From the NCBI GenBank assembly GCA_900168235.1, contig FUZG01000004.1:62001-126000 (forward strand): a stretch of 64,000 nt of DNA. The letters are read 5' to 3'. The translations under genes were made by a program, and so were the position numbers. The notes beneath the pieces were generated by a model. That model worked only from the letters and a program-made list of their open reading frames with translations, had not been told where the DNA came from and ran no database searches. Source of the DNA: Lachnospiraceae bacterium. GTDB lineage: Bacteria > Bacillota > Clostridia > Lachnospirales > Lachnospiraceae. Positions 39,977 to 57,757 of this stretch are shown piece by piece. How positions within the stretch are numbered: the first letter of the stretch is position 1; each line of letters begins with the position of its first letter.

Positions 39977-40879
39977 ATGGAAGAAAAAATCATTGTCAAA
40001 AAAATGACCCTGGTAGGTATCCTCGGTAATGTCATGCTTACGGCATTTAAGCTGTTTGCCGGTATTATTGGCAGATCCGGAGCTATGGTATCTGATGCGG
40101 TACATTCACTTTCTGATGTGTTCGCTACGTTCATTGCGTTCTGGGGAACTATTGTATCCAAACGTCCGGCTGATACAGAGCATCCCTATGGACATGAACG
40201 GGTAGAATGTGTTGCTTCACTTATCCTCGGAATGATCCTCTTTGTGACCGGATTAGAGATCGGTAAAGTTGGTATTCAGACTATCTTGTCCGGAAAATAT
40301 GAGGCTATGCCTGTTCCGGGAAAGATCGCTCTTATCGCTGCGATAGTTTCCATAGTCACCAAGGAAGCGATGTTCTGGTACACAAGGCACTATGCAAAGA
40401 TACTTCATTCAGAGGTATTTCTTGCCGATGCATGGCACCATCGTTCAGATGCACTTTCATCCGTAGGATCACTTATCGGTATCGGTGGTTCTATGCTTGG
40501 TTTTCATGTAATGGATTCCGCCGCCAGTGTCATTATCTGTTTCTTTATTCTAAAAGTTGCATACGATATCCTAAAAGATGCCATTAATAAAATGATGGAT
40601 ACTTCCTGTGGCGAAGAGTATGAACAAAAAATCAGGGATTTTGTTTCAGAACAGGAAGGTGTCCGGGCGGTTGACGTACTTCACAGCCGTATGTTTGGAA
40701 GCCGTGTCTACGTTGATCTGGAAATAGAGGTTGATAGAAATATAACCGTGGGTGAAGGTCATGATATCGCTGAAAATGTTCATGACCGCATTGAACAAAA
40801 TTTTGAAGAGATAAAGCATGTAATGATCCACGTTAATCCAACCGCAGAGCTTGTGACCGGAAGCCTGAAAGATATGTAA
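39977..40879 (+). CDS. Cation diffusion facilitator (CDF) family efflux transporter
   Basis: This inner-membrane antiporter exports divalent metals. The protein of about 300 residues has six predicted helices and the two metal-site motifs SDAVHSLSD (helix II) and ADAWHHRSDALSS (helix V). Residue patterns of this kind occur in zinc, iron and manganese exporters. A cytoplasmic C-terminal domain (ENVHDRIEQNFEEIKHVMIHVNP) follows. The start is uncertain: ATG at 39977 begins MEEKIIVKK, but longer in-frame starts exist at 39932 and 39956 without better ribosome sites. Confidence 0.87.
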   Translation: MEEKIIVKKMTLVGILGNVMLTAFKLFAGIIGRSGAMVSDAVHSLSDVFATFIAFWGTIVSKRPADTEHPYGHERVECVASLILGMILFVTGLEIGKVGIQTILSGKYEAMPVPGKIALIAAIVSIVTKEAMFWYTRHYAKILHSEVFLADAWHHRSDALSSVGSLIGIGGSMLGFHVMDSAASVIICFFILKVAYDILKDAINKMMDTSCGEEYEQKIRDFVSEQEGVRAVDVLHSRMFGSRVYVDLEIEVDRNITVGEGHDIAENVHDRIEQNFEEIKHVMIHVNPTAELVTGSLKDM

Positions 40880-40887
40880 ATCCTTTA

Positions 40888-40916
40888 TTTACGCCATATC
40901 TTTTGTTCAGTATAAT
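40888..40916 (+). promoter_or_regulatory. Predicted promoter of lemA
   Basis: TTTACG (40888-40893) and a perfect TATAAT (40911-40916) are separated by 17 bp. Confidence 0.5.
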
Positions 40917-40979
40917 GTAGATAATGTGCATAAAAATGTGCCATTATTTATCATTGATCTTTTAAGACAGGGGAAACTT

Positions 40980-41543
40980 ATGAAAAACAGTAATGTAACT
41001 TTATTTGTGATTCTTGGAATTATTTTTGTATTCGTGCTGGGAGTGATCGGTGGATATAATTCACTGATAAGCAAGCAGACCGCTGTAGAGGAGCAGTATG
41101 CAAATATAGATACTCAGTTACAGCGCCGCAATGACCTGATACCGAATCTGGTTAATACTGTAAAGGGGTATACCGATCATGAAAGCGAAGTCTTTCAGCA
41201 GGTCACAGAAGCCCGTGAAAAGATGATGGCTGCAAATTCCGTTGCAGAGAAATCAGAGGCAGATGCAGAGGTAACAAGTGCTCTTAATAAGCTGATCGCA
41301 GTTGCCGAAAACTATCCTGAACTCAAGTCTGACACTGTTTACGTCAGCCTTATGGATGAACTTGCAGGTACAGAAAACCGTATTTCTTATGCAAGACAGG
41401 AGTACAATGCTTCTGTTGCTTCTTACAACAAGTCTATCCGTGCATTTCCCGGTGTAATGTATGCTAATATATTCGGATTTGAGAAAGCCGAACTCTTTGA
41501 AGCCAGCGAAGGCTCAGACGTTGTTCCGTCTGTAGAATTTTAA
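40980..41543 (+). CDS. LemA family protein
   Basis: LemA proteins are membrane-anchored helical-bundle proteins of unclear role. The 187-residue protein has one N-terminal helix (about residues 7-26, LFVILGIIFVFVLGVIGGYN) followed by the signature VEEQYANIDTQLQRRNDLIPNLV and, later, ENRISYARQEYNASVASYN. The ATG at 40980 is used because GGGGAAA precedes it; an upstream ATG at 40926 is less likely. It is paired with a TPM-domain gene, a very common association. Confidence 0.93.
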   Translation: MKNSNVTLFVILGIIFVFVLGVIGGYNSLISKQTAVEEQYANIDTQLQRRNDLIPNLVNTVKGYTDHESEVFQQVTEAREKMMAANSVAEKSEADAEVTSALNKLIAVAENYPELKSDTVYVSLMDELAGTENRISYARQEYNASVASYNKSIRAFPGVMYANIFGFEKAELFEASEGSDVVPSVEF

Positions 41544-41568
41544 TATAACGCACGGTTTAAGGTTGAAA

Positions 41569-42513
41569 ATGTCTTCTAGAAGAAAAAAGCATGTTTATGC
41601 GCCCAATTCACCATATTATTCATATAGAAAACCGAAATTTATAGAACACCCTGCTGCCAAAGTACTCGTATTTTTGGTGTGTGTGTTTATCACGATAGTA
41701 GGAGTAAAGCATTTCTACGATGAAGGTAAATACAAGTATTCCATAAATATTCCGGAACACACAGAGTACTTCTATGTGGAGGATTACAGTGGTGTACTGA
41801 ACCAAAAAACAGAAAAGTATATCCTGGATGAAGCAGTCAAGCTTAATAAAGCTACAAGTGCTCAGGTAGTCGTTGTAACAGTTCCAAATACCCAGCACCA
41901 GTCGCTGGAAGATTTCTCTATCGAACTTGCAAACGAATGGGGAATCGGCGACAGAGCCCTTGATAACGGTGTATTGTTATTATTCACCACAGCCTATGAT
42001 GATCCCCATGTGAGACTTGAGATAGGCAAGGGTCTTGAGGGCGCGATTTCTGACGGAAAAGCAGGACGTATACTTGATAAATATGCCGTTGAGCCTAAGG
42101 ACGACGGTCTTTGGAACACTGCTGCTGGTGACACATTTACGGCAGTAATTAAAGAAGTTTATAAAGAATATGGGAAGGAAGTTCCTGATTCGGTAACTTC
42201 TCAGGAATGGGAAGACGACAATGCTCCCACGAAGGGAACCTTTGCTGACAGCGATTTTCCGGGTCCTGTGCTGATCGCGAACGATGATCCATTTTTTGAA
42301 CAGCTGATCGATGCTATTATAATGTTCGGATATCATGCATTTTTAGTAATAATGATCTTTATGCTTATTTTATATACCATATTCGACAGAGGTAATGGTT
42401 CCTCATCAGGGCGAGGCGGATTCTTTGGTGGTAGTTTATCCGGCGGCTCCAGCGGCGGAGGGGGCTACAGCGGTGGAGGCGGTTCCTTCGGCGGAGGAGG
42501 AGCTTCCAGATAA
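41569..42513 (+). CDS. TPM-domain membrane protein (YgcG family)
   Basis: This 314-residue protein has a first membrane helix (about residues 25-42) and an extracytoplasmic TPM/DUF477 domain (residues 60-200, VEDYSGVLNQKTEKYILDEA and EWGIGDRALDNGVLLLF). A second membrane helix (about 245-265) follows, with a glycine/serine-rich tail ending in GGGGSFGGGGASR. This layout is typical of YgcG-like proteins beside LemA. The biochemical function is not settled; acid phosphatase activity has been described for plant TPM proteins. Confidence 0.88.
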   Translation: MSSRRKKHVYAPNSPYYSYRKPKFIEHPAAKVLVFLVCVFITIVGVKHFYDEGKYKYSINIPEHTEYFYVEDYSGVLNQKTEKYILDEAVKLNKATSAQVVVVTVPNTQHQSLEDFSIELANEWGIGDRALDNGVLLLFTTAYDDPHVRLEIGKGLEGAISDGKAGRILDKYAVEPKDDGLWNTAAGDTFTAVIKEVYKEYGKEVPDSVTSQEWEDDNAPTKGTFADSDFPGPVLIANDDPFFEQLIDAIIMFGYHAFLVIMIFMLILYTIFDRGNGSSSGRGGFFGGSLSGGSSGGGGYSGGGGSFGGGGASR

Positions 42514-42540
42514 GGCTTTCAATATAACACATGTATCTAA

Positions 42541-42574
42541 AAGGGCTGGGAACAACAAGTTCCAAGCCCTTTTT
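42541..42574 (+). terminator. Rho-independent terminator after the TPM gene
   Basis: AAGGGCT-G-GGAAC (42541-42553) pairs with GTTCC-A-AGCCCTT (42559-42571) apart from one mismatch, followed by a T-run. It separates this pair from the Pel operon. Confidence 0.88.
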
Positions 42575-42721
42575 ATGTGCACATAAAACATGTCCGATAC
42601 AATGACCAATTTTGCTATTGATATTTATATCTATTATTTCGATATTCATTTCAGAGGAATCGATACAGTATGTAGTTTTGACTGCTCTGGTTAAACGTGC
42701 GTCTGGATAAAGGATGTAGAT

Positions 42722-44818
42722 ATGAACACATTGATAATCGGTAATGTTGGATATTGGACTGAGGAAACTCTGAAAATAGCATTTCCAGATGATTCCATCA
42801 TCCTATGCGGAACAAACTGTGAAGATAAAAAATCAGGAAATATCAAGTGGTTTAAGATAGGGCTGGAGGGGAGAAAAGCCAGATACGTGTTCGAAACATT
42901 TAATTTCGAACGCGTTGTTTATATGTCCGAATATCTCACGTACCACACTGTAGCAGAAGACGAGCTTGAAAGAGTGCGAAGACTTCTGAGACTATGCAGA
43001 AATTCAAATATTTCCCAGCTGATATATTTCACTTCTGATGTTGTTTGCAGTACCGAGGAAAATTCAAAGAAAATGATCCTCGAAGCCGGAGAGAATCTTT
43101 TTGCGTATTACGCAAATCAGTTCAGAGTTGACTTCCGGATCGTCAGATGCCCGTTTTTAATCTCTCCTACATTGAAAACTGACTATATTTATCAGTTATT
43201 CCATAATGCATACAGCGGAAAGGACGAGATCGAACTGGATGCTCCAATGGAAGAAATAAATCACTTCATAGATATGAGAGATGTGGCAAACTTCTTCTAC
43301 AGGCTTCAGGATAACTGGGAGGTCGGAGACAAGATTTTGAGGCTTTTCCCAAGAGCAAAATGTTCATTTAAGACATTAGGAGATTTCCTAAAAAAGAAAA
43401 ACACGAATCTATTGGTTGTATATGCAGATAATTCAGCAGTACGTCCAAAATTCAGTAAAGAAGAGAATACCGTTCGAGAGAGATTTGGCTGGACGCCAAT
43501 GTATGATCCGCTGGAGATCCTGGATGAGTATTACGAAGAATATCTGACTCTAAACGAGCAGAAGCCAAGCTTACGTGAGCGGATCAAGAGAAAACTGCAT
43601 CTCAAGAGCTGGACGATGATGGTTATAGAAATAATCGTCGGTGCACTCTTTGTAGAATACCTGAATAAGATTTCCGGAAATTCAGTTCAATTCCGGATGA
43701 TCGATTACAGGCTTCTTTTTGTTGTGATAATTTCTACAATTTATGGCACAAATATTGGTTTTATCGCTGCTGTTATAGAATCAATATCACTTGTTGCCGC
43801 ATATTATCAAAGGGGCAGTAACTGGCTCATGCTCTTCTATGATCCGGGTAACTGGATGCCGTTCATTTTGCTGTTTGCAGTAGCTGCTGTATGCGGTTAT
43901 ATCAAGCAAAAGAAGGATGAAGACATTCATTTTGTTTATGAAGAAAATAAATCTATCAGAGAACAGAACAATTTCATAACTCAGCTGTATGAGCAGGTTC
44001 TGGATTACAAAAATCAGTATCGAAAGGACCTTATCGGCAGCAGAGACGGTTTCGGACGTATTTTTGAAGTTGTTCAGAGACTGAACAATACTATCCCTGA
44101 AAAAATATTTACTGAGTCCATCCCGGTAATGGAGGATGTTCTCGAAAATGACTCCATCGCCATTTATTCCATAAATGATCCTACTGCAAGATTTGCTCGA
44201 CTCGAAGTATGTTCCACGAATATTGCGGCTGACCTGAAAAAATCCTTCCAGCTTGAAGGATACGAAAACATAATAGAAACCGTTAAAAAGGGTGAAGTCT
44301 GGTTTAATAAGGATCTGGCGGAATCTCTTCCAATGTATGCCTCAGGTATCCTCGCGGAAGGTGAGCTTACAGTGCTCATAATGATCTATCATGCAGGATT
44401 CGGACAGACCAATAACTACTATTCAAACCTGATACGTATTCTCAGCGGTCTCATGGAGAACTTTATCGTAAAGGCATGGGATTACAGGAAAGCTATAGAA
44501 GAGAGGATATACATTTCAGGAACGAATATTTCAAATTGGGATTATTTCAAGGAACAGCTTGAAATTGAAAAACAGGCGGCGTCAAACCAGCTTGTATCCT
44601 TTAGATTGTTTAAACTCGATCCCGCCGGAAACAGCATTGTTGAAATGGATTCACTTCTGCAGTCAAAGATACGAAATAACGACCTCATAGGTCAGAGTCC
44701 GGACGGGTTTGTATTTGTCATGGCATCCCAGGTGGATGCGAGCAGTGAACAGATCGTATTAAAGAGATTTTTAGACCTTGGACTAAATTGTGAGATTGTT
44801 GACCCTGCCTCAGTATGA
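42722..44818 (+). CDS. pelD: PelD-like c-di-GMP receptor with N-terminal epimerase-like domain
   Basis: This 698-residue membrane protein is the likely regulatory subunit of a Pel polysaccharide synthase. Residues 1-285 resemble an extended SDR/NDP-sugar epimerase, but the nucleotide loop is degenerate (IIGNVGYWTEE) and no YxxxK is seen. Residues about 298-395 hold four membrane helices, about 430-580 a GAF-like domain, and about 600-698 a GGDEF-like domain. In the last, the catalytic motif is lost (SPDGF), but RNND at 651-654 stands at the RxxD inhibitory-site position, the site PelD uses to bind c-di-GMP. An AAAGGA ribosome site precedes the ATG. pelE, pelA, pelF and pelG follow. Confidence 0.85.
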   Translation: MNTLIIGNVGYWTEETLKIAFPDDSIILCGTNCEDKKSGNIKWFKIGLEGRKARYVFETFNFERVVYMSEYLTYHTVAEDELERVRRLLRLCRNSNISQLIYFTSDVVCSTEENSKKMILEAGENLFAYYANQFRVDFRIVRCPFLISPTLKTDYIYQLFHNAYSGKDEIELDAPMEEINHFIDMRDVANFFYRLQDNWEVGDKILRLFPRAKCSFKTLGDFLKKKNTNLLVVYADNSAVRPKFSKEENTVRERFGWTPMYDPLEILDEYYEEYLTLNEQKPSLRERIKRKLHLKSWTMMVIEIIVGALFVEYLNKISGNSVQFRMIDYRLLFVVIISTIYGTNIGFIAAVIESISLVAAYYQRGSNWLMLFYDPGNWMPFILLFAVAAVCGYIKQKKDEDIHFVYEENKSIREQNNFITQLYEQVLDYKNQYRKDLIGSRDGFGRIFEVVQRLNNTIPEKIFTESIPVMEDVLENDSIAIYSINDPTARFARLEVCSTNIAADLKKSFQLEGYENIIETVKKGEVWFNKDLAESLPMYASGILAEGELTVLIMIYHAGFGQTNNYYSNLIRILSGLMENFIVKAWDYRKAIEERIYISGTNISNWDYFKEQLEIEKQAASNQLVSFRLFKLDPAGNSIVEMDSLLQSKIRNNDLIGQSPDGFVFVMASQVDASSEQIVLKRFLDLGLNCEIVDPASV

Positions 44819-44849
44819 GAGCTGATTCAGATAAAGCCCGGAGGTAGAA

Positions 44850-45731
44850 ATGGTTAAGTTATTTTTACTGATACATGTGTTATTACTGTTAGCAATAGTG
44901 TATCTGCGGATGATAAGCAGGCTGAGACTCACTCTGACGACGATTCCGCTTGTCTTGTTCGTCCCTGTTTGGGGAAGTATCTCTGTTTTGCTGGAGTACT
45001 ATCTCAGAAAGACACACAGGATTGGGACAGCAGCTGAAAACCTTGAAGTCATGAAAGCGAGTCTCGTCAACATGGACGAAATGCCGACGCCGGAGGATGA
45101 AGAAGGTGGTTCTGTTCCTCTGCAGGATGCACTTTTGATCGATAATTCGCAGATGAAGCGTTCGGTTATCCTGAATGTTCTGATGCAGGACGCAAACAGC
45201 TATGTAAAGGTCCTTAATGAAGCCCGAATGAATGAAGACGTGGAAGTTGTTCATTATGCCACAACTGCCATGATGGAGCTGTCAAAAGAGTATGAGTTCA
45301 GGATACAAAAATTTGCGGCAATGTACGCAGACGAACCTGATAATGATGAGCTTCTGACAGAATACAGGAACTATATCGAGCAGTATGTGTATTCCGGCAT
45401 GGTCGAAGGACAGATGCTGGAACTGCACATGAATACGTATAAGCAGCTTTTGCTGGACTGCATCCAGAGATTTGATAATAAAGAAGACTATTTTTCACTT
45501 ATAAACTGCTTATTTGAAAGCGGTGAGCTTGCGCAGGTCAGATCGTATCTGTCCAAAATAGAAGAAAAATGGCGGGATGATGAAAACGTCTGGTTATTCA
45601 AGTTCAGACTGGCGTTTGAAACCAGTGACACGGATGAAATGTGCAGTCTTATCAATGAAACTAAAGAAGAAGGCAGATTCTTCTCTAAGGATATCAGAAA
45701 AATAGCTGCATTTTGGGAAAAGAAACAATGA
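44850..45731 (+). CDS. pelE: PelE-like membrane TPR protein
   Basis: This 293-residue protein has two N-terminal membrane helices (about residues 2-20 and 29-50) and a helical, TPR-like cytoplasmic part (about 100-290). That matches PelE, the scaffold that connects PelD, PelF and PelG at the membrane. The position between pelD and pelA supports the call. Sequence conservation of PelE is low, so it is named mostly from layout and order. A GGAGG ribosome site precedes the ATG, and the stop overlaps the next start (ATGA). Confidence 0.78.
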   Translation: MVKLFLLIHVLLLLAIVYLRMISRLRLTLTTIPLVLFVPVWGSISVLLEYYLRKTHRIGTAAENLEVMKASLVNMDEMPTPEDEEGGSVPLQDALLIDNSQMKRSVILNVLMQDANSYVKVLNEARMNEDVEVVHYATTAMMELSKEYEFRIQKFAAMYADEPDNDELLTEYRNYIEQYVYSGMVEGQMLELHMNTYKQLLLDCIQRFDNKEDYFSLINCLFESGELAQVRSYLSKIEEKWRDDENVWLFKFRLAFETSDTDEMCSLINETKEEGRFFSKDIRKIAAFWEKKQ

Positions 45732-47572
45732 GCATTTTTGAGAAAAAATCAAAAACAAAAGATCATAGATTTTACATAACGCTCAGGGTTTTTGCGGGAT
45801 TCTGCGCTTTCTTTCTGCTGCTCCTTTTAGAGAGGGTGGGAATCATATATAAATATCCTCATCCTGTTATCAATCTGGTCTCAGCAGATGAAAAATCTGC
45901 AAATAAAAAGGCTGTCGGCGACACAACGTGCCTGCTCATCGTTGACAGCAATAACGAAACGAGCCTTGCTGACAGGAACGAGTTCGAACAGATCTTAAAG
46001 GATATGAGGATCGCATATGATCTGGAAGACCTCGCGGATAAAAAGGGACACCTGGAAGAACTTAACAAATATAAGACTATAGTATATGCGACCACAGACG
46101 TTTCTGCTATGGGAAATACGCTTCTGGATATGGTCGAATGGGTTGCAGACGGCGGTTCTATGCTCTTTGCACTTCCGCTTCAAAAAACAAACGAACTGAA
46201 TGTCATCGGTCCGAATGTCGGCATAGAAGAAAGCGGATATGAATACTCCATGGTAGATACATTCCTTCCGACAGAAGATTTCATGCTGGGCGGAGGTCAG
46301 GTTTATAAGATTCAGGACGGATACGAGTCTGCCCTCACCGTCGGACTAAGCGACAAATGTAATGTTTATGCGACGACAGCAGACGGCAGTGTTCCCATCA
46401 TTTGGGAAAAAGATTATAAAAACGGCAGATTTGTTGTCTGCAATTTTGCGTACTGTCAGAAAGCCTACAGAGGCGTTTACGCCGCCGCATATTCACTTTT
46501 GGGAGATTCCTGCGTTTATCCTGTGATCAATGCCTCCACATATTATCTGGACGATTTCCCGTCGCCTGTACCTCAGGGGGACGGAACATATATTGAGCGT
46601 GACTATCACATGCAGACCGCAGATTTCTATTCGTCTGTATGGTGGCCGGATATGCTGACTCTTGCAGAAGAGCATGACATTCAGTACACAGGTCTCATTA
46701 TCGAAACCTACGAAGGTAATACGAGCGAAAAACTAAACTCAAACCTGAGTACCGCAGATTTTTATTACTACGGAAATATGCTGTTAAACCGCGGCGGAAC
46801 GCTTGGTTATCACGGCTATAACCATCAGCCCTTATGTGGACCGAATTATACATACGAAGAGGATCACGGCTACAAAGTATGGGAAAGCTTTGATGCAATG
46901 CACAATGCCATGGATGAGCTTGAAAGATTTTCAAAATCCATCTTCACAGGCGCGGAATTTGCAGTTTATGTCCCGCCTTCAAACATTTTATCTGACGAAG
47001 GAAGGTATATGCTGGGGCACGATTATGACGACATTAAGTGCATAGCCAGTACGTATTTTGAAGGAAATGATGCATATACACAGGAATTTGAAGTAGCTGA
47101 AGACGGTATCGTAGAAACTCCGCGTATCATATCCGGAGGTATTCTTGATGACTATATGAGGTTTTCAGCCTTTTCGGAGCTGAATTTTCATTTTGTAAAT
47201 TCACATTTCATCCATCCTGACGATCTCCTTGATGCTGACCGCGGAGCAGCTCTGGGATGGGAGACGCTTAAGGGCAATCTGTCAAATTACATGGAGTGGC
47301 TGGATAAAAGTGCACCTGATATACGTCATGTCACCGGAAACAGCATGGCTGGCGCTGTTCAGCGATACAGTATGCTCTCATGTGATAAAGAAGAAAAAGA
47401 GAACGAGATCATTTTGGATTTCAAAGGTGTAAGTGACGAAGCATATTGTTTTATACGCTTAAACAGAGGAAAAGCAGGCGAAGTTACCGGAGGTTCCATA
47501 AAGAATCTTGTAGGAGATCTGTACCTTCTGAAGATTGACGATGATAAAGTGACGATTGTTATTGATCACTGA
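45728..47572 (+). CDS. pelA: PelA-like polysaccharide deacetylase (DUF2194 family)
   Basis: This 614-residue protein is anchored by one N-terminal helix (about residues 17-36) and otherwise lies outside the membrane. The middle holds a CE4-like deacetylase with the metal-binding YYLDDFPSP (Asp275/276) and YHGYNHQP (His362/366). It is preceded by a region resembling the Rossmann-like part of PelA (LLIVDSNNETSLADRNEF). It would remove acetyl groups from the polymer. No separate glycoside-hydrolase domain like that of Pseudomonas PelA is apparent. The start overlaps the pelE stop (ATGA); a start at 45713 is also in frame. Confidence 0.82.
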   Translation: MSIFEKKSKTKDHRFYITLRVFAGFCAFFLLLLLERVGIIYKYPHPVINLVSADEKSANKKAVGDTTCLLIVDSNNETSLADRNEFEQILKDMRIAYDLEDLADKKGHLEELNKYKTIVYATTDVSAMGNTLLDMVEWVADGGSMLFALPLQKTNELNVIGPNVGIEESGYEYSMVDTFLPTEDFMLGGGQVYKIQDGYESALTVGLSDKCNVYATTADGSVPIIWEKDYKNGRFVVCNFAYCQKAYRGVYAAAYSLLGDSCVYPVINASTYYLDDFPSPVPQGDGTYIERDYHMQTADFYSSVWWPDMLTLAEEHDIQYTGLIIETYEGNTSEKLNSNLSTADFYYYGNMLLNRGGTLGYHGYNHQPLCGPNYTYEEDHGYKVWESFDAMHNAMDELERFSKSIFTGAEFAVYVPPSNILSDEGRYMLGHDYDDIKCIASTYFEGNDAYTQEFEVAEDGIVETPRIISGGILDDYMRFSAFSELNFHFVNSHFIHPDDLLDADRGAALGWETLKGNLSNYMEWLDKSAPDIRHVTGNSMAGAVQRYSMLSCDKEEKENEIILDFKGVSDEAYCFIRLNRGKAGEVTGGSIKNLVGDLYLLKIDDDKVTIVIDH

Positions 47573-47588
47573 TAGAAAGGTTATCAAG

Positions 47589-48998
47589 ATGAGAATCTGC
47601 CTCGTATTGGAAGGAAGTTACCCGTACGTTCATGGTGGAGTTTCCACTTGGATGCACAGCTACATACAGAATATGAAAGAGCATGAGTTTGTTCTCTGGG
47701 TGATCGGCGCAAAATCCGCAGACAGGGGACACTTTGCCTATGAGCTTCCTGAAAACGTGGTTGAGGTTCAAGAAGTTTTCCTTGATGATGCGCTTTCTGT
47801 AAAGCCGGACAAAAAACAGATTCCCTCATTGAATAAAGAGGAAAAGCAGGCTTGCAGAGAATTGATGAAATGTGAGAGGCCGGATTGGGACGTTATCATA
47901 CGAATGTTTCAGGATAAAGGTATAAATCCGCAGAATTTCCTGATGGGAGAGGACTTTCTCGAAGTAATTTCAACACTTTGTCTTGAAGAATATCCCTATG
48001 TTCCGTTTGCGGAAACCTTCCATACGATAAGGTCCATGCTCCTGCCTGTGCTATATCTGCTCGGAACAAAGGTCCCGAAAGCAGACATGTATCACGCGAT
48101 CTGTACCGGATACGGCGGACTGCTGGCTGTTCTCGGAGCGTACAAGTATAAAAAGCCCATCGCTCTGTCGGAGCACGGAATATACAGCCGAGAACGCGAA
48201 GAGGAGATAATCCGCGCAAAATGGGTTGTTCCGTCATTCAAGAAGCAGTGGATAAAGTTCTTTTACATGCTTTCAGATGCGATATACAAAAGAGCCGCTG
48301 CCGTAAGCTGCCTTTTCGTACGGGCATCCCTCACACAAAAAGAACTGGGAGTTCCTGGTAACGTGAGTTACGTTATACCAAACGGTATCGACTACGATAG
48401 ATTCTCGTCAATTCCGGAAAAACCCGATGACGGCTTCGTAGACATCGGCGCAGTCATCAGAATGGCACAGATAAAAGACGTAAAAACCCTGATCTATGCA
48501 TTTTATGAATTGCAGAGCATGCGGGATAATGTGCGTCTTCACATCCTCGGCGGAGTAGATGACGACGAATATGCAAACGAGTGTTACGACATTGTAAAGC
48601 AGCTCAACATCCAAAATCTGTTCTTCGTGGGGCGTGTTGATGTGGTGAAATACATGGAAAAGCTGGATTTCACCATCCTTACAAGCCTTTCGGAAGGTCA
48701 GCCGTTATCAGTTTTGGAGTCTCTGGCTGCAGGACGCCCATGTGTAACTACCGAGGTTGGATGCTGCAGAGAGCTTCTAGAGGGAATGGATAATGACAAT
48801 TTTGGTGTAACAGGCTATCTTGCACCGCCGATGCACAGAAAAGCTATCGCTCTCGCTATGAATAAAATGTGCGAAAGCAGGCAAAAGCGCCTTGAGATGG
48901 GAGAACTCGGAAAACTCAGGGTTAAGAGCTTTTACAAGACTGAAATGATGATGGAAAAATACAGGCACTTTTATGACCGTGTCATGGAAAATCAGTAA
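47589..48998 (+). CDS. pelF: PelF glycosyltransferase (GT4)
   Basis: PelF is the cytoplasmic GT-B transferase that polymerises Pel from UDP-sugars. The 469-residue protein starts MRICLVLEGSYPYVHGGVS, the highly conserved PelF beginning, and has HGIYSRERE, YVIPNGIDYDRF and the donor-site stretch SLSEGQPLSVLESLAAGRP (with the E-x7-E type motif). The ATG at 47589 lies 17 bp after pelA with AAAGG upstream. It is the best-supported member of the cluster. Confidence 0.95.
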   Translation: MRICLVLEGSYPYVHGGVSTWMHSYIQNMKEHEFVLWVIGAKSADRGHFAYELPENVVEVQEVFLDDALSVKPDKKQIPSLNKEEKQACRELMKCERPDWDVIIRMFQDKGINPQNFLMGEDFLEVISTLCLEEYPYVPFAETFHTIRSMLLPVLYLLGTKVPKADMYHAICTGYGGLLAVLGAYKYKKPIALSEHGIYSREREEEIIRAKWVVPSFKKQWIKFFYMLSDAIYKRAAAVSCLFVRASLTQKELGVPGNVSYVIPNGIDYDRFSSIPEKPDDGFVDIGAVIRMAQIKDVKTLIYAFYELQSMRDNVRLHILGGVDDDEYANECYDIVKQLNIQNLFFVGRVDVVKYMEKLDFTILTSLSEGQPLSVLESLAAGRPCVTTEVGCCRELLEGMDNDNFGVTGYLAPPMHRKAIALAMNKMCESRQKRLEMGELGKLRVKSFYKTEMMMEKYRHFYDRVMENQ

Positions 48999-49038
48999 AT
49001 ACACGCGAAAATATATACAAAGATATCGGGTATGAAAT

Positions 49039-50490
49039 ATGGCAGGAATAGGATTTGAACTGAAAAAATTATTTCGCTCAACAGGTGTTTTTGCGATATT
49101 AAAAGCATATGGATATACGGGAATGGTCACTGCAGGACCCATGCTCCTTGGCGTGATCTTTCTTCTCAGCGTCTCGTATCTCGGGAGATTTTTCGGGCTT
49201 GCGAAAGCTGATCAGGATCTGCTGGTCGCTATGATAACATATGCTCTTCTTGCGTCCCTATTGCTCACAAGCCTGTTTTCCATGGGAACTACGCGATATG
49301 TGGCGGATATGCTCTATCAGGAGATGGAAGACAGGATTCTTCCTTCGCTTGACGGCGTCATCTGCATAACCGTTCCTCTGGGCGGATTAATATACGGGAC
49401 CTTCCTGATCTTTTCAGGAATCCCGCTAGGTCTCGGCATCCTGAATTTCCTGTTTTTTACGGAACTGGTCGTTGTATGGATGCAGATGAACTATTTATCT
49501 GCGATAAAGGACTATAAGGGCATCATGTTCGGTTACGTTATCGCTATCATTTTTTCCGTATCTATAGCGATAGTACTCTGTTTATTGATAGAGGTATCCC
49601 TGATAAGCCTGATGATCGCTGTTACATCAGGATATGGCGTCATGGTGGTCTTTCATTACTATCTTCTTTACAGGTATTTTGATAATCCAAAGAAGATGAG
49701 CTTTGAATTTTTGAAATGGTTTGACGAATACGGTGAGCTGTCCGTAATCGGATTCTGCATGAACCTGGGTCTGTTCTCACACTTGGTGATCGGCTGGTTT
49801 TCACACGTTGGCTATCAGATACGAGGGCTGTTTTACAGCGCGCCACAGTACGATGTGCCGGCTCTGTACGCATTCATTACGATACTCATTACCACTATAA
49901 ATTTTGTGGCATCTGTTGAGGTCAATTTTTATCCAAAATACAGGCGTTACTATGACCTTTTCAACGGAAAGGGCTCTATCACAGAGATCACAAAAGCCGA
50001 AGAGGAGATGCTCACAGTCCTTGATCACGAGATCACGTATACTGCGAGAAAGCAATTTTACGGAACTGCGCTGATGCTTTCCCTCGGACTTCTCATATTA
50101 AACAGACTTCCTCTAGGCTTTGATTCCCTGATGGAAGGCTATTTCAGGATTTTATGTGTGGGTTACGGTGTATATGCCATTGCTAATGTCATGATGATGA
50201 TCCTCATGTACTTTTCCGATTATGAGGGAGCCAAAAAAACTGCTGTGATTTTTGCAGCGTTAAGCACGACACTCAGCATATTATCGCTTTTCATAAACGT
50301 TAAATACTACGGTTTTGCGTTCTGCCTCGGAAGCATGGTCTATTTTCTCGCGTGCTTCAAGAGACTCAGATACTTTACCCAGAGACTTCCGTATCATATT
50401 TTGAGTAAACAGCCAATGGTCTACGTGAGAAAAGACGGACTGGGCGTAAAGGTAAGCAAAAAAATGACCCATATGGAAGATAATTTTTAA
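49039..50490 (+). CDS. pelG: PelG polysaccharide exporter (MATE/MOP-like)
   Basis: PelG is the membrane protein that moves the nascent polymer across the cytoplasmic membrane. The 483-residue protein starts MAGIGFELKKLFRSTGVF, typical of PelG, and has about 12 hydrophobic helices. It belongs to the MOP flippase superfamily. It directly follows pelF, as in other pel operons. Confidence 0.93.
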   Translation: MAGIGFELKKLFRSTGVFAILKAYGYTGMVTAGPMLLGVIFLLSVSYLGRFFGLAKADQDLLVAMITYALLASLLLTSLFSMGTTRYVADMLYQEMEDRILPSLDGVICITVPLGGLIYGTFLIFSGIPLGLGILNFLFFTELVVVWMQMNYLSAIKDYKGIMFGYVIAIIFSVSIAIVLCLLIEVSLISLMIAVTSGYGVMVVFHYYLLYRYFDNPKKMSFEFLKWFDEYGELSVIGFCMNLGLFSHLVIGWFSHVGYQIRGLFYSAPQYDVPALYAFITILITTINFVASVEVNFYPKYRRYYDLFNGKGSITEITKAEEEMLTVLDHEITYTARKQFYGTALMLSLGLLILNRLPLGFDSLMEGYFRILCVGYGVYAIANVMMMILMYFSDYEGAKKTAVIFAALSTTLSILSLFINVKYYGFAFCLGSMVYFLACFKRLRYFTQRLPYHILSKQPMVYVRKDGLGVKVSKKMTHMEDNF

Positions 50491-50550
50491 ACCATAGATT
50501 GAAGTAAACTACTTCATGCGAGTGAACGGTAACGGAAAAGAGGGACACGG

Positions 50551-52371
50551 ATGAAGAAGGAAACACAAAAGTTTTTGAGCGTTGTATTGGCATTATGCAT
50601 AGTAATGGTGATCTCATGGCAATATGGACGTATTTCTAACGATTCACCGAAAAATACACCTCCCGAAGAAGTTAAGGAAGCAGATGCGTCCGATGCAGCA
50701 TCTGAAGCTAAAACTCCTATGGCATCAGATGAAATTAAGTTTGATACTTCAAATTCTAAGCACCTTTCTGACTTTTCTTATCTCTATGAAGATAATGGTG
50801 ATTCATATGTGACCATGTATCTCACAGTACGAAAAGGGAATAAAACAGAGGGAACAGATCACACCTGGAAAGAAGTAAACGCTCATTCCGTTTATTACTA
50901 CGAAGAAAAAGATATTGACCGTTATAAAATAGAGGGACTCCTGCAGGTAGGAGACGAGAACGGACCTCTCCCCGGACTTTTAGGATATGGCAAAAAAGTG
51001 CCCAATGCCATTGTTCAGATCAGAGGTCAGTCATCCAGTACGAATACACAGAAAAACTACAAAATCGAGCTGAAGCCAAATCAGGGATCGTGGAACGGGC
51101 AGACAACTATCGCACTGAATAAACACGTAAATGACGGTCTACGATTCAGAAATAAGATGGGTTTTGATCTGCTTTCAGGGATTGATGAACTGATGAGCCT
51201 CAGAACAACTTTTGTACACTTGTACGTTAATGATCTTACCGATGAGGAAAGCGACGGTTTCCGAGACTATGGTCTTTATACTCAGGTCGAACAGTTAAAT
51301 AAAACTGCATTAAAGAACCACGGTCTGGATAAAACAGGTCATTTATACAAGGTAAACTTTTTTGAGTTTTACAGATATGAGGATGTCATAAAACTCGCGA
51401 CAGATCCTGATTATGATGAAAAAAAATTCGAAACCTACCTTGAAATAAAGGGGGCTTCTGACCATACCAAACTCATAGAAATGCTTAAGGATGTGAATGA
51501 TTACACCATCCCTATTGATGATGTAATCGAAAAGCATTTTGATATGGAAAATCTGACTTACTGGCTTGCATTCAATATTTTGACAGGAAACGCAGATACT
51601 CAGAGCAGAAATTTCTACCTGTACAGTGCTCAGAATGAAAAGACCTGGTATCTCTATTCCTGGGATCTGGATGGAATGTTCCGTTATGATGAGAACAGAC
51701 TTACAGATATCAACGATTTTGAAAGCTGGGAGCGAGGAGTCAGCAATTACTGGGGAAATGTTCTGTTCCAGAGATGCCTGAAATCCTCGAAATTCAGAGA
51801 TCAGTTAGATTCTGCAATACATGATCTGAAGGATTATCTTTCCAAAGAAAGACTTTCAGGAATGATAGCTGAGTACCGCAAGGTTGCCAAGCATTTTGCA
51901 TACTCTGAACCTGATCTCACATATATGAAGCTGACAGAAGAGACATATGATGAAATAGCAGCAAAACTTCCTGATCTGGTCGACACATATTATGGATTCT
52001 ACAGCGACTCCCTGCAGAAACCGATGCCATTCTTTATTTATGAGCCGGAAGTACAGGACGGAAAGTTAAAGGTTGGATGGGAAGCCTCATATGACTTCCA
52101 GGAAGAAGAGCTGTCATACACCGCGTGTCTGTCAAGAAATCCTGATGGAACAGACGTTGTCGGTGAATACACAGGAAAATGGACTGAAGCTACATTTGAT
52201 ATGCCTTCAAGCGGCGAGTATTTCCTTAAAGTTTATGCATCGGATGAAAGCGGCAATACTCAGGATGCCTTTGATCGTTACGAAGTAGAAGGATACGGAA
52301 AGTACTACGGTGTTATCTGCTTCTATATTAACAGCAACGGAACCATCGGTAATTACGAGACAGAGGAATGA
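50551..52371 (+). CDS. CotH kinase family protein, membrane-anchored
   Basis: CotH-like proteins are atypical kinases; Bacillus CotH phosphorylates spore-coat proteins. The 606-residue protein has an N-terminal membrane helix (about residues 8-26), then the kinase-like domain. That domain has the glycine/serine stretch IRGQSSSTNTQKNYKIELK (putative ATP-binding lysine), NADTQSRNFYLYS, and SWDLDGMF (Trp371, Asp372, Asp374; metal-binding). A C-terminal beta-sandwich-like region (about 490-590) follows. It would act outside the cell. It follows pelG by 60 bp and overlaps the VTC gene, so it appears to be part of the operon. The substrate is unknown. Confidence 0.85.
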   Translation: MKKETQKFLSVVLALCIVMVISWQYGRISNDSPKNTPPEEVKEADASDAASEAKTPMASDEIKFDTSNSKHLSDFSYLYEDNGDSYVTMYLTVRKGNKTEGTDHTWKEVNAHSVYYYEEKDIDRYKIEGLLQVGDENGPLPGLLGYGKKVPNAIVQIRGQSSSTNTQKNYKIELKPNQGSWNGQTTIALNKHVNDGLRFRNKMGFDLLSGIDELMSLRTTFVHLYVNDLTDEESDGFRDYGLYTQVEQLNKTALKNHGLDKTGHLYKVNFFEFYRYEDVIKLATDPDYDEKKFETYLEIKGASDHTKLIEMLKDVNDYTIPIDDVIEKHFDMENLTYWLAFNILTGNADTQSRNFYLYSAQNEKTWYLYSWDLDGMFRYDENRLTDINDFESWERGVSNYWGNVLFQRCLKSSKFRDQLDSAIHDLKDYLSKERLSGMIAEYRKVAKHFAYSEPDLTYMKLTEETYDEIAAKLPDLVDTYYGFYSDSLQKPMPFFIYEPEVQDGKLKVGWEASYDFQEEELSYTACLSRNPDGTDVVGEYTGKWTEATFDMPSSGEYFLKVYASDESGNTQDAFDRYEVEGYGKYYGVICFYINSNGTIGNYETEE

Positions 52372-52373
52372 CT

Positions 52374-53099
52374 ATGAAGCGTTTTCGTCATGAACTGAAA
52401 TATCTCATAAATTACGGCAATCTTGAAGAACTACGGCTTCGTATGAAACCTTATTTCAAGATAGATCCGCATGCCGTAAACGGTGAGTATATGATCCGGA
52501 GCCTGTATTTTGATGATATCTACAACAGCGCTTACGATGACAAAGAGAGCGGTATTTTCTATCGTACTAAATACCGGATACGGATCTACAACTGCTCAGA
52601 CTCCAGTATAAAGCTGGAGCGGAAAATAAAGCAGGGAAGCTATATTTATAAGGAATCCGCAGCTCTCACAAAGGATGAAGTCTGCAAGATAATTGACGGT
52701 GATTTCGATTTTCTTTTACACCACGAGAATAATCTCTGCCGGGAGTTTTATATCGAGTGTATATCGAAATTCATGAGGCCAAGAGTCATTGTTGATTACG
52801 AAAGAGAACCGTATTTTTTGGACGAAGGCACTGTCCGCATCACCTTTGATAAAAGAGTGCGTGCATCATCGTTTGGCTTCGATATTTTTGATAAAGAGCT
52901 TCCGACCCTTCCTGCAATGACCTACGACAAGCTGATCATGGAAGTGAAATATACGGAGTTTCTGCCAAAGATCGTAAAAGATATGATACCTGTCAGAGCC
53001 ACGGAGTTCACAGCAGCATCAAAATACGTGATCTGCTGTGATCAGACGAAATATCTGAACGGTAGCGACTATTATATTGATGAGAGGAGTGCGTTATGA
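52374..53099 (+). CDS. VTC-domain protein (polyphosphate polymerase-like)
   Basis: This soluble protein of about 241 residues has the VTC/CYTH-type tunnel fold pattern of the polyphosphate-polymerase domain of yeast Vtc4. Visible segments are FRHELKYLINY, RSLYFDDIYNSAYDDK, YRTKYRIRIYN, IKLERKIKQGSYIYKESA and a late LIMEVKYTEFLP. They supply the basic and acidic tunnel residues. Bacterial members are of unproven activity. Two starts are possible (52368 or 52374); GAGG favours 52374. It overlaps the DUF4956 gene by 4 bp. Confidence 0.85.
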   Translation: MKRFRHELKYLINYGNLEELRLRMKPYFKIDPHAVNGEYMIRSLYFDDIYNSAYDDKESGIFYRTKYRIRIYNCSDSSIKLERKIKQGSYIYKESAALTKDEVCKIIDGDFDFLLHHENNLCREFYIECISKFMRPRVIVDYEREPYFLDEGTVRITFDKRVRASSFGFDIFDKELPTLPAMTYDKLIMEVKYTEFLPKIVKDMIPVRATEFTAASKYVICCDQTKYLNGSDYYIDERSAL

Positions 53100-53767
53100 G
53101 CGTAAGAGATGTTGTAAAAAAATCAATCCTTAATTCGGAGGCGTTCACAACCTACGACATAGGCAGTATCGCCCTCAAGATTTTGATAGCCGTACTGCTG
53201 GGCGTTATCATCTTTCTGATATATAAAAAGTTCTATTCCGGAGTCATCTATTCAAGGAACTTTGCCGTAACGCTCATCGGTATGACGGTGATGACCGCAA
53301 TGATCACTGTGGCTATCAGCACAAACGTCGTTATCTCACTTGGTATGGTCGGTGCGCTTTCGATCGTGAGATTTAGGACAGCAGTGAAGGATCCGCTGGA
53401 TCTGCTATACCTGTTTTGGGCGATATCCAGCGGTATAACAGTAGGCGCAGGCATGAATCTGCTGGCACTTATCGTTGCCGCTGTCATGATGGCACTGATC
53501 TGGTTTTTCTATGCACAGCAGAGTACAAATCAGGTTTACATGGCAGTGATCCACTATACAGGCGATGATACCGGTGACGAGATACTGCGTGAATTAAATA
53601 AGGCAAGATATCACGTGAAATCCAGAACCTTCAGAGGATCAAAAACCGAACTCGCAGTTGAAGTATACGTAAAAAATAATGATTTCTTTTTTGAAGAAAA
53701 AATACGAAATATGCCCGGTGTTGCTGATATAACACTTATTCAGTACAGCGGGGAGTATCATGGCTGA
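53096..53767 (+). CDS. DUF4956 membrane protein
   Basis: This 223-residue protein has three to four membrane helices (about residues 22-45, 58-78 and 98-140), with the conserved stretch GMVGALSIVRFRTAVKDPLDLLYLFWAI. A cytoplasmic ferredoxin-like tail (about 150-223) follows. DUF4956 proteins are repeatedly encoded beside VTC and CotH genes. The function is unknown. It is the last gene of the Pel operon, followed by a strong terminator. Confidence 0.87.
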   Translation: MSVRDVVKKSILNSEAFTTYDIGSIALKILIAVLLGVIIFLIYKKFYSGVIYSRNFAVTLIGMTVMTAMITVAISTNVVISLGMVGALSIVRFRTAVKDPLDLLYLFWAISSGITVGAGMNLLALIVAAVMMALIWFFYAQQSTNQVYMAVIHYTGDDTGDEILRELNKARYHVKSRTFRGSKTELAVEVYVKNNDFFFEEKIRNMPGVADITLIQYSGEYHG

Positions 53768-53777
53768 TAAAGCATTG

Positions 53778-53819
53778 AAACCGGTCGATGTTCAAAAAAT
53801 TGACATCGACCGGTTTTTT
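53778..53819 (+). terminator. Rho-independent terminator ending the Pel operon
   Basis: A 14-bp perfect stem (53778-53791 with 53803-53816) is followed by a run of T. It marks the end of the transcript that begins upstream of pelD. Confidence 0.92.
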
Positions 53820-53856
53820 AAACTACACGTTTAATGACGCAGAAAAAACTACAGCG

Positions 53857-53978
53857 TATAATAAGTACATAAATTGCCTATGTAGAATAAAGCTTCATAC
53901 ACTTTGCCTGCTTATGCTCAATTTGTGCGGCTATCATCATATTACGAAAAGTTAAAATCTTTCAGCTTGAGCATAAGC
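53857..53978 (+). promoter_or_regulatory. Upstream region of the macrodomain gene: TATAAT and 12-bp inverted repeat
   Basis: A perfect TATAAT lies at 53857-53862 with a poor -35 (ATGACG at 53834). Downstream, GCTTATGCTCAA (53910-53921) and TTGAGCATAAGC (53967-53978) form a perfect 12-bp inverted repeat with 45 bp between, in the leader before the AAAAGGAGAG ribosome site. Confidence 0.4.
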
Positions 53979-54001
53979 TACTCATAAAAAGGAGAGACGT
54001 A

Positions 54002-54517
54002 ATGATTATAAAAGCAATACTTGGCGATATTACAAAACAAACTGATGTAGAAGCAATCGTGAACGCAGCCAATTCATCACTTCTTGGTGGAGGCGGGGTT
54101 GATGGTGCGATTCACCGAGCTGCAGGACCTGAACTTTTAGAAGAATGTAGGAATCTACATGGATGCAAGACCGGAAATGCTAAGATTACCGGAGCATATC
54201 GCCTGCCGTGCAAGTATGTCATTCATACTGTAGGACCAGTCTGGAACGGCGGAAAATATTCCGAGCCTGAAAGTCTCAGAAACTGCTACATAAATTCGCT
54301 GACTATCGCAAAAGAAAAAGGCATACGGACTATTGCATTTCCGTCAATTTCAACCGGAATCTACAGCTATCCATTAGATCAGGCTTCGGAAATAGCAGTG
54401 AAAGCGGTTTATGATTTTACATCAGAAAATCCTGATTCCTTTGATCTCGTTGAATGGGTCTGCTTTGATGAAAATACGCTTGCTTCATATAGTAAAGTAA
54501 TTAAGCAATTTATATGA
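54002..54517 (+). CDS. Macrodomain ADP-ribose/O-acetyl-ADP-ribose hydrolase
   Basis: This 171-residue macrodomain protein removes ADP-ribose modifications or deacetylates O-acetyl-ADP-ribose. It shows the full set of ligand motifs: [34 protein letters not shown] and [27 protein letters not shown] follows. It belongs to the MacroD/YmdB type. It stands alone after the Pel terminator; no ADP-ribosyltransferase partner is seen nearby. Confidence 0.93.
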
Positions 54518-54674
54518 AATTTTATTATAGTTATGGGATTGGAAATTCTCGAAAACGTTTGGAAGCCGCAAACATGGCTATGAATAATTATTTAAAAGAT
54601 GACATTCAAAGGAGCTATTTGGAATGAAATGGAAATATAACGTATTGATTGACAGAATCAACTGGCGGAAATAA
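54514..54674 (+). other. Two overlapping micro-ORFs after the macrodomain gene
   Basis: A 37-codon frame (54514-54627, starts [19 protein letters not shown]) overlaps the macrodomain stop as ATGA. A 16-codon frame (54624-54674) overlaps the end of the first as ATGA and has AAAGGAG 9 bp upstream. They look either like tiny coupled genes or like remnants of a decayed gene. The rest of 54675-55467 is AT-rich and shows no convincing gene on the plus strand. Confidence 0.3.
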
Positions 54675-54935
54675 AATAGTAAAAGTATCGTCAGTGATTC
54701 TGAATCTGACTTCTAACACAGATTGAATCTTAGTAATCTATTTTCTTACATTTAATTGCACACAGAGAGTATTCTAATAGATAATGAAAAGCAGATTGTC
54801 TCTGTTGCAAGATTTTTCTTTATTTCATAATTTCCCGCGCAATGCACAACTGAAAATCGAATAGACGGTGCTTCGGGAGAATAGTTCTAAATATATTCGC
54901 ATAATATAAATTATACGAATATATTGCCGCATGAA

Positions 54936-55091
54936 TCAAAAACTGTCAAGATTCGTGTCTTTGGTTAACATAAATCCATTATGTAAACCATTATCGGTTT
55001 TAACGTCCCAAACCCATATTTTTACGATTTTCATAATTTTACCCTTGAGCTTGTCAAGCTCTTCTGATTTTGCTCTTAAAAGTACCAGCAT
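54936..55091 (-). CDS. Possible 51-residue small protein
   Basis: A short frame in an otherwise empty stretch encodes a basic protein of 51 residues starting MLVLLRAKSEELDKLKGK. The N-terminal half could form an amphipathic helix. An AGAGG lies only 2 bp before the ATG, which is closer than usual. I recognise no family. It may be a chance frame. Confidence 0.25.
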   Translation of the reverse strand: MLVLLRAKSEELDKLKGKIMKIVKIWVWDVKTDNGLHNGFMLTKDTNLDSF

Positions 55092-55396
55092 AACCTCTCA
55101 CTTAAAATAATTACAATTAATTGATCATATTTACTGTCGAGGTTTTAGAAAGCAAACATTTTATACATTTAAATATACATAGCTTAATGCATATTTTTTC
55201 CGTTATTAATTTCTGCAGATTGCTTTTGCTTTAACCATTTTCTATCATTCTTTCCCAGCCATTTTTATCTCGCCTCGCCGATAAATTACGCTTAAAGCAC
55301 GCAGAATCATCCGCGTAAAAAAATACGAGCATCAAGACCGGTTCGATTTATTTTTATGCCCGCCTGGTGTATAATCATGAGCAGCACGTATCTTTT

Positions 55397-55425
55397 TTGA
55401 AATAATTCAATACCTTTTATAGATA
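55397..55425 (+). promoter_or_regulatory. Possible promoter of the diguanylate cyclase gene
   Basis: TTGAAA (55397-55402) and TAGATA (55420-55425) are spaced by 17 bp, about 43 bp before the ATG. No c-di-GMP riboswitch signature was seen in the leader. Confidence 0.35.
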
Positions 55426-55467
55426 CGGCTAAAATCAGCATACACTTAAAATTGAGGGAGAGATCAT

Positions 55468-56649: not shown

Positions 56650-56670
56650 ACCTGTTACATGAAACACAAA

Positions 56671-56710
56671 GAACCCGATACCTCCAATTACGAAGTATCG
56701 GGTTCATTTA
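56671..56710. terminator. Terminator between convergent cyclase and lipoprotein genes
   Basis: An 11-bp perfect stem (GAACCCGATAC 56671-56681 with GTATCGGGTTC 56695-56705) lies between the two convergent genes, with A/T-rich flanks on both sides. Confidence 0.75.
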
Positions 56711-56730
56711 TTGAACACTTAGCAAGTTTT

Positions 56731-57468
56731 TTACTTTAATACTCTGATAACTTCCTCAAGCGCATCTACCAACTGGGAAAGATTATTATAGGTCTCCAAT
56801 TTCTTCTCAGCCGAAAGATCTGAAAGGTCGATATCACCATAAATATCGATTGCCTGACGCGATGACTGCAATAATTCCTCGAGATCATCATTCTGAGCGA
56901 CTGCGTCATCCGCATAGGTATCAATGAGTTCATTATATGTATTAACAAGTTTCTGGTACATATTTCTGACATCTGTGTTTGATACCGCAGGCTCTGCGTC
57001 ATCAACCGTTTCCATCTGGTCAATAATCATCTGAAGCGCTTCGGCTGTAGTGATCATTGCATCATTCAGTGTCTTATAATCTTCCTGACCGTTGAAATCA
57101 TCCTCTGATAATTCTCCCATCTCTTCGATAAGATCCTTTGCATCAGACATATTTTTCTCAACAGAGTCAGACTGCGCGATCTTATCATTCATGTACAGAT
57201 CATTTACGGTATCATAAATTTCTGTCAGGGTTTTGTAATTATCCTGAAGATCCTCAAATGTGAGTTCAGAGGACTCTTCCTTTAGATCAGCCTTTTCTCC
57301 AACAGCCTTTGCCGGAGCTTCTGCCTCTTCTGCTTCTTCTGCCTGTGTCTCTTCCTGAGCAGGTGCTTCTGCAGGCGCCTTGTCATTGGTGTCACCACCG
57401 CCGCATCCCATTAGTAAAGATGCGCACAATACACCTGCGATTAAAAGTGATAAAAATTTGTTTTTCAT
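56731..57468 (-). CDS. Lipoprotein with internally duplicated helical domain
   Basis: This 245-residue secreted lipoprotein has a signal peptide with the lipobox LLMGC (Cys22 lipidated), an acidic alanine/glutamate-rich linker (residues 23-60) and a helical part. The helical part is built from two similar halves: about 70-145 (LQDNYKTLTEIYDTVNDLY, IAQSDSVEKNM) and about 165-245 (MYQKLVNTYNELIDTYADD, VAQNDDLEELL). The duplication is visible by eye. No function is recognised. An AGAGGGG ribosome site precedes the ATG. It is encoded alone. Confidence 0.8.
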   Translation of the reverse strand: MKNKFLSLLIAGVLCASLLMGCGGGDTNDKAPAEAPAQEETQAEEAEEAEAPAKAVGEKADLKEESSELTFEDLQDNYKTLTEIYDTVNDLYMNDKIAQSDSVEKNMSDAKDLIEEMGELSEDDFNGQEDYKTLNDAMITTAEALQMIIDQMETVDDAEPAVSNTDVRNMYQKLVNTYNELIDTYADDAVAQNDDLEELLQSSRQAIDIYGDIDLSDLSAEKKLETYNNLSQLVDALEEVIRVLK

Positions 57469-57494
57469 ATTAATCCCCTCTTAAAGTAAAACCG

Positions 57495-57709: not shown

Positions 57710-57757
57710 ATATGCAAACATACATTCGTGCAGGCTATGTACGATCACAGAGGTACT

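Follow-up and report, generated by a model that had tools for sequence, protein, structure and literature searches.

A probable c-di-GMP-controlled Pel exopolysaccharide operon in a Lachnospiraceae bacterium, with CotH, VTC and DUF4956 genes that also occur outside pel

An eight-gene pel locus

We analyzed a stretch of 64,000 nucleotides (the window) from the genome of a Lachnospiraceae bacterium (assembly GCA_900168235.1, contig FUZG01000004.1, positions 62,001 to 126,000), which carries genes for a Pel-type polysaccharide. Five adjacent forward-strand open reading frames in the order pelD-E-A-F-G occupy positions 42722-50490 of the window, as the initial annotation had claimed. The pelD gene (42722-44818) encodes a protein of 698 amino acids and pelE (44850-45731) one of 293 amino acids. 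The deacetylase gene pelA_DA (45713-47572, 619 amino acids) has a likelier start at the ATG at 45728, overlapping the pelE stop, and the likelier start of pelF (47556-48998, 480 amino acids) is the ATG at 47589. The fifth gene, pelG (49039-50490), encodes a membrane translocase of 483 amino acids. These five core genes are as first described, but the end then given to the unit, 50490, is three genes short. A gene for a CotH-like secreted kinase (cotH, 50551-52371), a gene with a VTC-type polyphosphate polymerase domain (52368-53099), and a gene for DUF4956, a membrane protein with a C-terminal soluble part (53096-53767), follow on the same strand. The cotH/VTC and VTC/DUF4956 junctions each have a 4-base overlap.

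Two forward-strand hairpins that resemble intrinsic terminators bracket these genes; both were spotted by reading the sequence and then folded. The first (42539-42573) lies upstream of the operon, 3′ of the preceding gene (41563-42513), and folds at -19.9 kcal/mol (z -4.68). The second (53777-53817) closes the eight-gene unit at -25.4 kcal/mol (z -7.06). Each has a T run, and for each none of 200 shuffles was as good. A promoter scan was uninformative (37 found vs 33.7 expected), and a search for RNA families across 40000-58000 at gathering thresholds returned none. We infer that 42722-53767 is one unit of eight co-transcribed genes. The gene order, including PelE, is common to relatives among the pel loci of the family.

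Profile searches agree with the PelF and PelG assignments of the initial annotation (a glycosyltransferase family 4, GT4, transferase and an exporter). PelG matches PF16933 at 434.8 bits (cut-off 29) and is the single match in the genome. PelF matches NF038011 at 300.7 bits (cut-off 100); it is the only one of seven matches in the genome above the cut-off, and it is the sole glycosyltransferase among the eight genes. PelA is a DUF2194 protein, as had been stated (PF09960, 532.8 bits), and it matches the solved Bacillus cereus PelA_DA (9zau) at E 1.6e-52. The catalytic positions of PelA_DA are described in PMC13254593 (this and the other published sources are cited here from parts of each paper), and by eye they are present in the window protein: DD, HxxxH, the VPPSN proline (PP), the PRI arginine, and HPDD. 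The predicted product is an extracellular deacetylase, a CE26-type, deacetylase-only PelA.

PelE has no Pfam match at E 0.01. Its AlphaFold2 (AF2) model (predicted local distance difference test, pLDDT, 82.5) is helical throughout, with N-terminal (membrane) helices and then an alpha-solenoid. Foldseek places tetratricopeptide repeat proteins among the top rows (best E 1.2e-3; 0 matches at E <= 0.001). The protein belongs to a syntenic family, and its position between pelD and pelA is common to the relatives.

PelD and its predicted c-di-GMP switch

Alignment, AF2 and profile searches divide PelD (42722-44818, forward strand) into a degenerate short-chain dehydrogenase/reductase (SDR) domain (residues about 1-285), membrane helices, a coiled coil, a GAF-like part, and a degenerate GGDEF domain. 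The membrane, GAF and degenerate GGDEF-like parts had been recognized before, and they are consistent with the AF2 secondary structure and with weak profile scores, but the N-terminal degenerate SDR/epimerase domain had been missed. The AF2 model has a mean pLDDT of 84.4 and a predicted template modeling score (pTM) of 0.45, and its secondary structure fits membrane helices, a coiled coil, and GAF and GGDEF-like parts. Searched against the PDB, a 21-row PelD profile matches epimerases and threonine dehydrogenases with E values as low as 1.6e-22, and all 50 Foldseek matches listed to the AF2 model are SDR-type chains (E 1.7e-12). YxxxK and GxxGxxG are motifs of SDR proteins. By eye, in an alignment to SDR structures, the window PelD has not kept the Tyr and Lys of the first motif or the third Gly of the second, so the domain is probably a pseudo-enzyme with a structural function.

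The codons of a predicted RxxD I-site (R651-N-N-D654) lie at 44672-44683 on the forward strand. R651 and D654 are invariant in 21 of 21 aligned PelD sequences (the window and 20 relatives), and the same two residues are invariant in 18 of 18 sequences in an alignment with relatives from Bacilli added. A third I-site arginine, R682, is kept in at least 90% of the 21. In place of the GGDEF signature stands SPDGF. A profile built from the C-terminal 300 residues matches solved diguanylate cyclases weakly (best 6khu, E 2.9e-4). Across the 21 sequences, Pfam finds GAF in three and GGDEF in three in this C-terminal stretch, and with Bacilli added it finds GAF_3 in nine of 18. A bridging profile with relatives from Bacilli reached diguanylate cyclases and uncharacterized chains only (best E 0.014, weaker than before).

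The RxxD I-site is a feature shared with B. cereus PelD, which binds c-di-GMP with a dissociation constant (KD) of about 103 nM and requires RxxD to do so (PMC7112168). Pel production under c-di-GMP control is a prediction with good support from homology. There are 39 GGDEF matches in the genome, and c-di-GMP enzymes are plentiful. Motif searches found GGDEF-like genes in the fetched stretch of three of 27 family pel loci, the window's included. A diguanylate cyclase with an intact RWGGDEF is encoded at 55468-56649 on the forward strand, 1.7 kb after the operon and beyond the hairpin; it is a possible c-di-GMP source for PelD.

CotH, VTC and DUF4956 inside and outside pel

CotH proteins are kinases. 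The window CotH matches PF08757 at 235.5 bits and aligns with B. cereus CotH (5jd9, E 2.3e-7) at two aspartate sites (NAD and WDxD), which we take to be the catalytic ones. The VTC protein matches PF09359 at 134.2 bits. As a single sequence it gave chance matches only against the PDB, and an alignment of 28 VTC proteins was needed: the profile of these matches yeast Vtc4 (3g3q) at E 1.9e-16. The alignment has 21 invariant columns, 16 of them charged residues, and because of these columns and the Vtc4 match the VTC enzyme looks intact. DUF4956 matches PF16316 at 45.2 bits and contains a block, SLGMVGALSI.R.RTA.K, that is invariant in 14 of 14 aligned sequences. By a simple index, a hydrophobic N-terminal stretch is present in 60 of 62 CotH and 42 of 44 Cthe_2159 proteins, vs one of 128 VTC proteins. 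No phage families were found for VTC and DUF4956.

What is new beyond print is that these three genes (the cassette) belong to a gene set that occurs mostly away from pel in the genomes examined. The authors of PMC12345266 (2025), in the part of that paper cited here, state that their analyses failed to find the syntenic cotH-polymerase-DUF4956 trio outside pel. Contrary to this, the trio does occur outside pel, and its published tie to Pel needs correcting. The genome has three VTC-DUF4956 pairs, one in the window, one on contig C5, and one on contig C19. On C5 (L012:7307-12535), a CotH-VTC-DUF4956-CotH operon lies between butyrate-pathway-like genes; no pel gene is labeled in the 19 kb around it, and it is not a contig-edge artefact. 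On C19 (L011:8492-11696), the VTC-DUF4956 pair adjoins a DUF6311 protein and has no pel gene near it. Two other loci, L187 and L188, share the downstream neighbors of the C19 pair. Eight CotH-family genes are present in this genome, five of which are not beside a VTC-DUF4956 pair.

In a sample of the family, DUF4956 is present in 89 of 120 genomes and PelG in 26 of 120. We took the regions around 130 DUF4956 places and around the PelG places that were not near one (the window's own place was taken from the window), called open reading frames, and labeled them with hidden Markov models (HMMs) grown from seeds of the window and of its own genome. This gave 131 DUF4956 genes once six duplicates among the loci of this genome had been removed; the two counts differ by a gene or so because the HMM finds a second DUF4956 on L118 and on L149. 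Nine of the 131 genes are pel-linked and 122 are not, although some regions end at contig edges, so that a few of the “non-pel” ones may be truncated pel loci. VTC, DUF4956 and CotH occur together at 41 of the 122, ten of them with CotH upstream as in pel. The gene downstream of the non-pel DUF4956 encodes CotH in 32 cases and the carbohydrate-binding protein Cthe_2159 in 43; CotH is upstream in nine and on both sides in one, and the remaining 37 have neither partner. Pfam agrees, with Cthe_2159 in 43 of 70 downstream non-CotH genes. Nothing general is conserved upstream of the non-pel VTC (histidine kinase domains occur in 13 of 59 scanned). We found no account of the VTC-DUF4956-Cthe_2159 set in the portion of the open-licence literature covered.

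Similar gene sets occur more widely. In a phylum sample, DUF4956 is present in 20 of 149 genomes and PelG, above the cut-off, in five. Among 14 control genomes, VTC and DUF4956 have matches in the same three (Bacteroides ihuae, Corynebacterium glutamicum, and Methanosarcina acetivorans); CotH is found in two of these and in Bacillus subtilis, and PelG is found in none of the three. We also examined named loci, the best 80 among the matches listed to the window DUF4956, 79 of which gave a DUF4956 call. Among these 80, 19 have PelG (including Peribacillus, Lysinibacillus, Cytobacillus, Exiguobacterium, Paenibacillus, a Collinsella assembly, and Abiotrophia) and 39 non-pel loci have CotH close by. 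Two loci with partial or PelF-like matches only, L237 and L238, were left out of the 19. At L238 (7468-12416, Dethiobacter alkaliphilus), CotH-VTC-DUF4956 is followed by a PelF-like GT4, and no PelG is labeled in 20.6 kb. At L237 (8904-12020), a PelD-like protein with SDR and membrane parts only stands directly before DUF4956 and a protein that by eye resembles a DUF4832 hydrolase. The NELoc-2 locus of Clostridium perfringens (PMC2879425) has VTC and CotH genes close together, as in the cassette, and a “tubulin/FtsZ” gene after each VTC that, from its length and place, may be DUF4956. No pel genes are named there in the part of the source cited, and a nearby gene is annotated “chitin synthase”.

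A tree of 117 VTC+DUF4956 pairs has one supported clade (13 rows, support 98) in which CotH alternates with Cthe_2159 as the partner, and VTC-DUF4956 resembles a core whose secreted partners can be exchanged. Seven of the eight pel-linked pairs fall in one clade with the C19 pair (Shimodaira-Hasegawa-like approximate likelihood ratio test, SH-aLRT, 100), and the eighth (L114) is placed elsewhere. When 75 named pairs are added, the 25 pel-linked pairs lie in one region of 37 rows (SH-aLRT 88), mixed with 12 non-pel rows. The trees do not show a single origin of the pel-linked cassette: the pel label needs three changes on the first tree and nine on the second, with some “non-pel” rows at contig edges.

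One explanation of these patterns is that the cassette genes merely lie next to pel and do not contribute to making Pel. Such a view fits the cassette being mostly without pel in the family sample, and it fits the 17 of 26 PelG genomes without a cassette beside pel on the available sequence, where some contigs end close by. However, the same two hairpins enclose the cassette and pel, and the last two junctions overlap. The clustering of seven of the eight pel-linked copies also argues for a shared role, as do distances between VTC+DUF4956 proteins that follow those of PelG (rho 0.88 over 23 pel-linked loci, 0 of 2000 permutations as high, shared ancestry not removed). In Streptococcus intermedius, deletion of the homologues of cotH or DUF4956, two of the three genes, alters Pel level and aggregation; the mutant without the polymerase homologue still aggregates (PMC12345266). 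We consider it unlikely that the three genes are bystanders.

The gene after the closing hairpin encodes a macro-domain protein (54002-54517, forward strand), where nine relatives have DUF4832. A gene for a DUF4832 hydrolase was found neither beside DUF4956 nor in a genome search, in which the control was also without a match. There are 28 loci with PelG and DUF4956 (the window included), and ten long same-strand next-genes were picked from them for scanning: nine are DUF4832 and one is GGDEF-EAL. Of the remaining 17 loci, the window set aside, some have contigs that stop before another gene. Many of the other next-genes are shorter or lie on the opposite strand, and for this reason the window is probably not the only locus without DUF4832. 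A search of the genome for GH114 gave one match, C13:37773, which is unlinked to pel. The GH114-type protein there (L252, C13:37773-38072) has 294 amino acids and a hydrophobic N-terminus, and is similar to a divergent gene next to the L189 pel locus (22% identity over 165 amino acids, E 1e-11). Twelve of the 27 family pel loci, all without the cassette (L153, L155, L158-L163, L165, and L167-L169), have a protein of 713-936 amino acids between pelE and pelA, with no Pfam match in the two scanned (L153 and L168). L153 also has DUF2304, GT4, glycosyltransferase family 2 (GT2), and DUF4832 genes downstream.

The predicted polymer and its relation to known systems

The layout was already published for clostridia in 2020, a point missing from the initial annotation. 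PMC7112168 (Whitfield 2020) describes pelDEA_DAFG with cotH-PPP-DUF4956-DUF4832 in streptococci and clostridia, with the same eight-gene content and order as in the window; the clostridial layout also shares the deacetylase-only PelA and the degenerate SDR on PelD. The window differs in having no DUF4832 after DUF4956, with the terminator-like hairpin and the macro-domain gene instead. S. intermedius SIR_1591-1594 (PMC12345266) has the same core, the same cotH-polymerase-DUF4956 trio, and a degenerate SDR on PelD, and its five core pel genes are essential. As described in the part of that source cited, S. intermedius PelD has no GGDEF and the species has no known diguanylate cyclase, whereas the window PelD has a GGDEF-like domain with an I-site in a genome rich in GGDEF matches. 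The pel operon of B. cereus ATCC 10987 (PMC7112168) and its PelA_DA structure, 9ZAU (PMC13254593), have the core five genes and the PelA_DA catalytic residues in common with the window. B. cereus PelD is without the SDR, and in place of the cassette the parts of these two papers cited give galE and a hydrolase as the accessory genes of bacilli.

Most likely the locus is an operon for Pel exopolysaccharide under c-di-GMP control, of the kind already described in Gram-positives. We hold it to be highly probable that the eight-gene unit makes and exports Pel under a PelD switched by c-di-GMP, with a recruited CotH-VTC-DUF4956 cassette that tunes Pel. PelF would polymerize UDP-N-acetylgalactosamine (UDP-GalNAc), PelG, with PelD and PelE, would carry the chain across the membrane, and PelA_DA would deacetylate it outside the cell, to give a Pel-type, GalNAc-rich, partly deacetylated exopolysaccharide. 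Binding of c-di-GMP to the RxxD I-site of the catalytically dead GGDEF of PelD would turn synthesis on. The cassette would be a copy recruited from a more general type and may tune the amount of Pel or its surface behavior.

Several results weigh against this interpretation. A consensus terminator scan found 12 terminators (8.7 expected), and neither bracketing hairpin is among them. No depolymerase gene lies within the eight-gene unit. The last 300 residues of the window PelD alone match 0 Pfam families, and in the 21-row PelD alignment one sequence, L166, lacks the third I-site arginine. Compared with PelD profiles and structures, the first protein gave no direct match to a solved PelD, only the weak matches to diguanylate cyclases: no solved PelD is among the structure matches to the window protein, where the listed Foldseek matches are filled by SDR chains, and PF16963 (PelD_GGDEF) has no match to it, the control likewise being without one. 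Sequence methods are equally blind to B. cereus PelD (PMC7112168). The part of this source cited also leaves it undecided if Pel is the product of certain variant pel clusters.

A second explanation keeps the homology and changes the product: a Pel-like machine may make a different polymer, for example one of N-acetylglucosamine (GlcNAc) or a mixed one. PMC7112168 does not commit to a product for Roseburia-type loci, additional GT2 or GT4 genes are present in two scanned family pel loci (L153 and L168), and the eight genes include no separate epimerase, the SDR looking dead. Against it, PelF is the only glycosyltransferase in the unit, the PelA_DA catalytic residues are present, and the similar layout of S. 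intermedius makes a GalNAc-rich polymer, in aggregates that are disrupted by PelA and Sph3 (PMC12345266). A different polymer is in our view very unlikely. We reject as highly improbable an active UDP-GlcNAc 4-epimerase in PelD that feeds PelF: the SDR fold is clear from the profile and Foldseek matches and the Brevibacillus version is potentially functional (PMC7112168), but the window protein has lost the motif residues named above and the same source describes those of clostridia as altered and probably inactive.

In yeast, VTC synthesizes polyphosphate and moves it across the membrane. A bolder extension of the Pel operon reading, which we regard as quite unlikely, is that VTC-DUF4956 is a general bacterial polyphosphate synthase-translocase whose export feeds the secreted partner and which was recruited in pel to set the surface hold of Pel. 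Cytosolic VTC would make polyphosphate and DUF4956 would pass it through the membrane, like the yeast VTC complex. The exported polyphosphate might be a phosphate donor for the CotH kinase or a polyanion for Cthe_2159, and in pel operons either exported polyphosphate or phosphorylation by CotH might set the surface hold of the cationic Pel.

The Pel locus adds an example that looks c-di-GMP-responsive to the clostridia, in a layout that is itself already in print. Published work does not settle what the accessory trio does for Pel. The trio is separable, as its genes are found next to pel, in the company of CotH only, or, as the VTC-DUF4956 pair, next to Cthe_2159, and its function is therefore testable away from Pel, in organisms without Pel.

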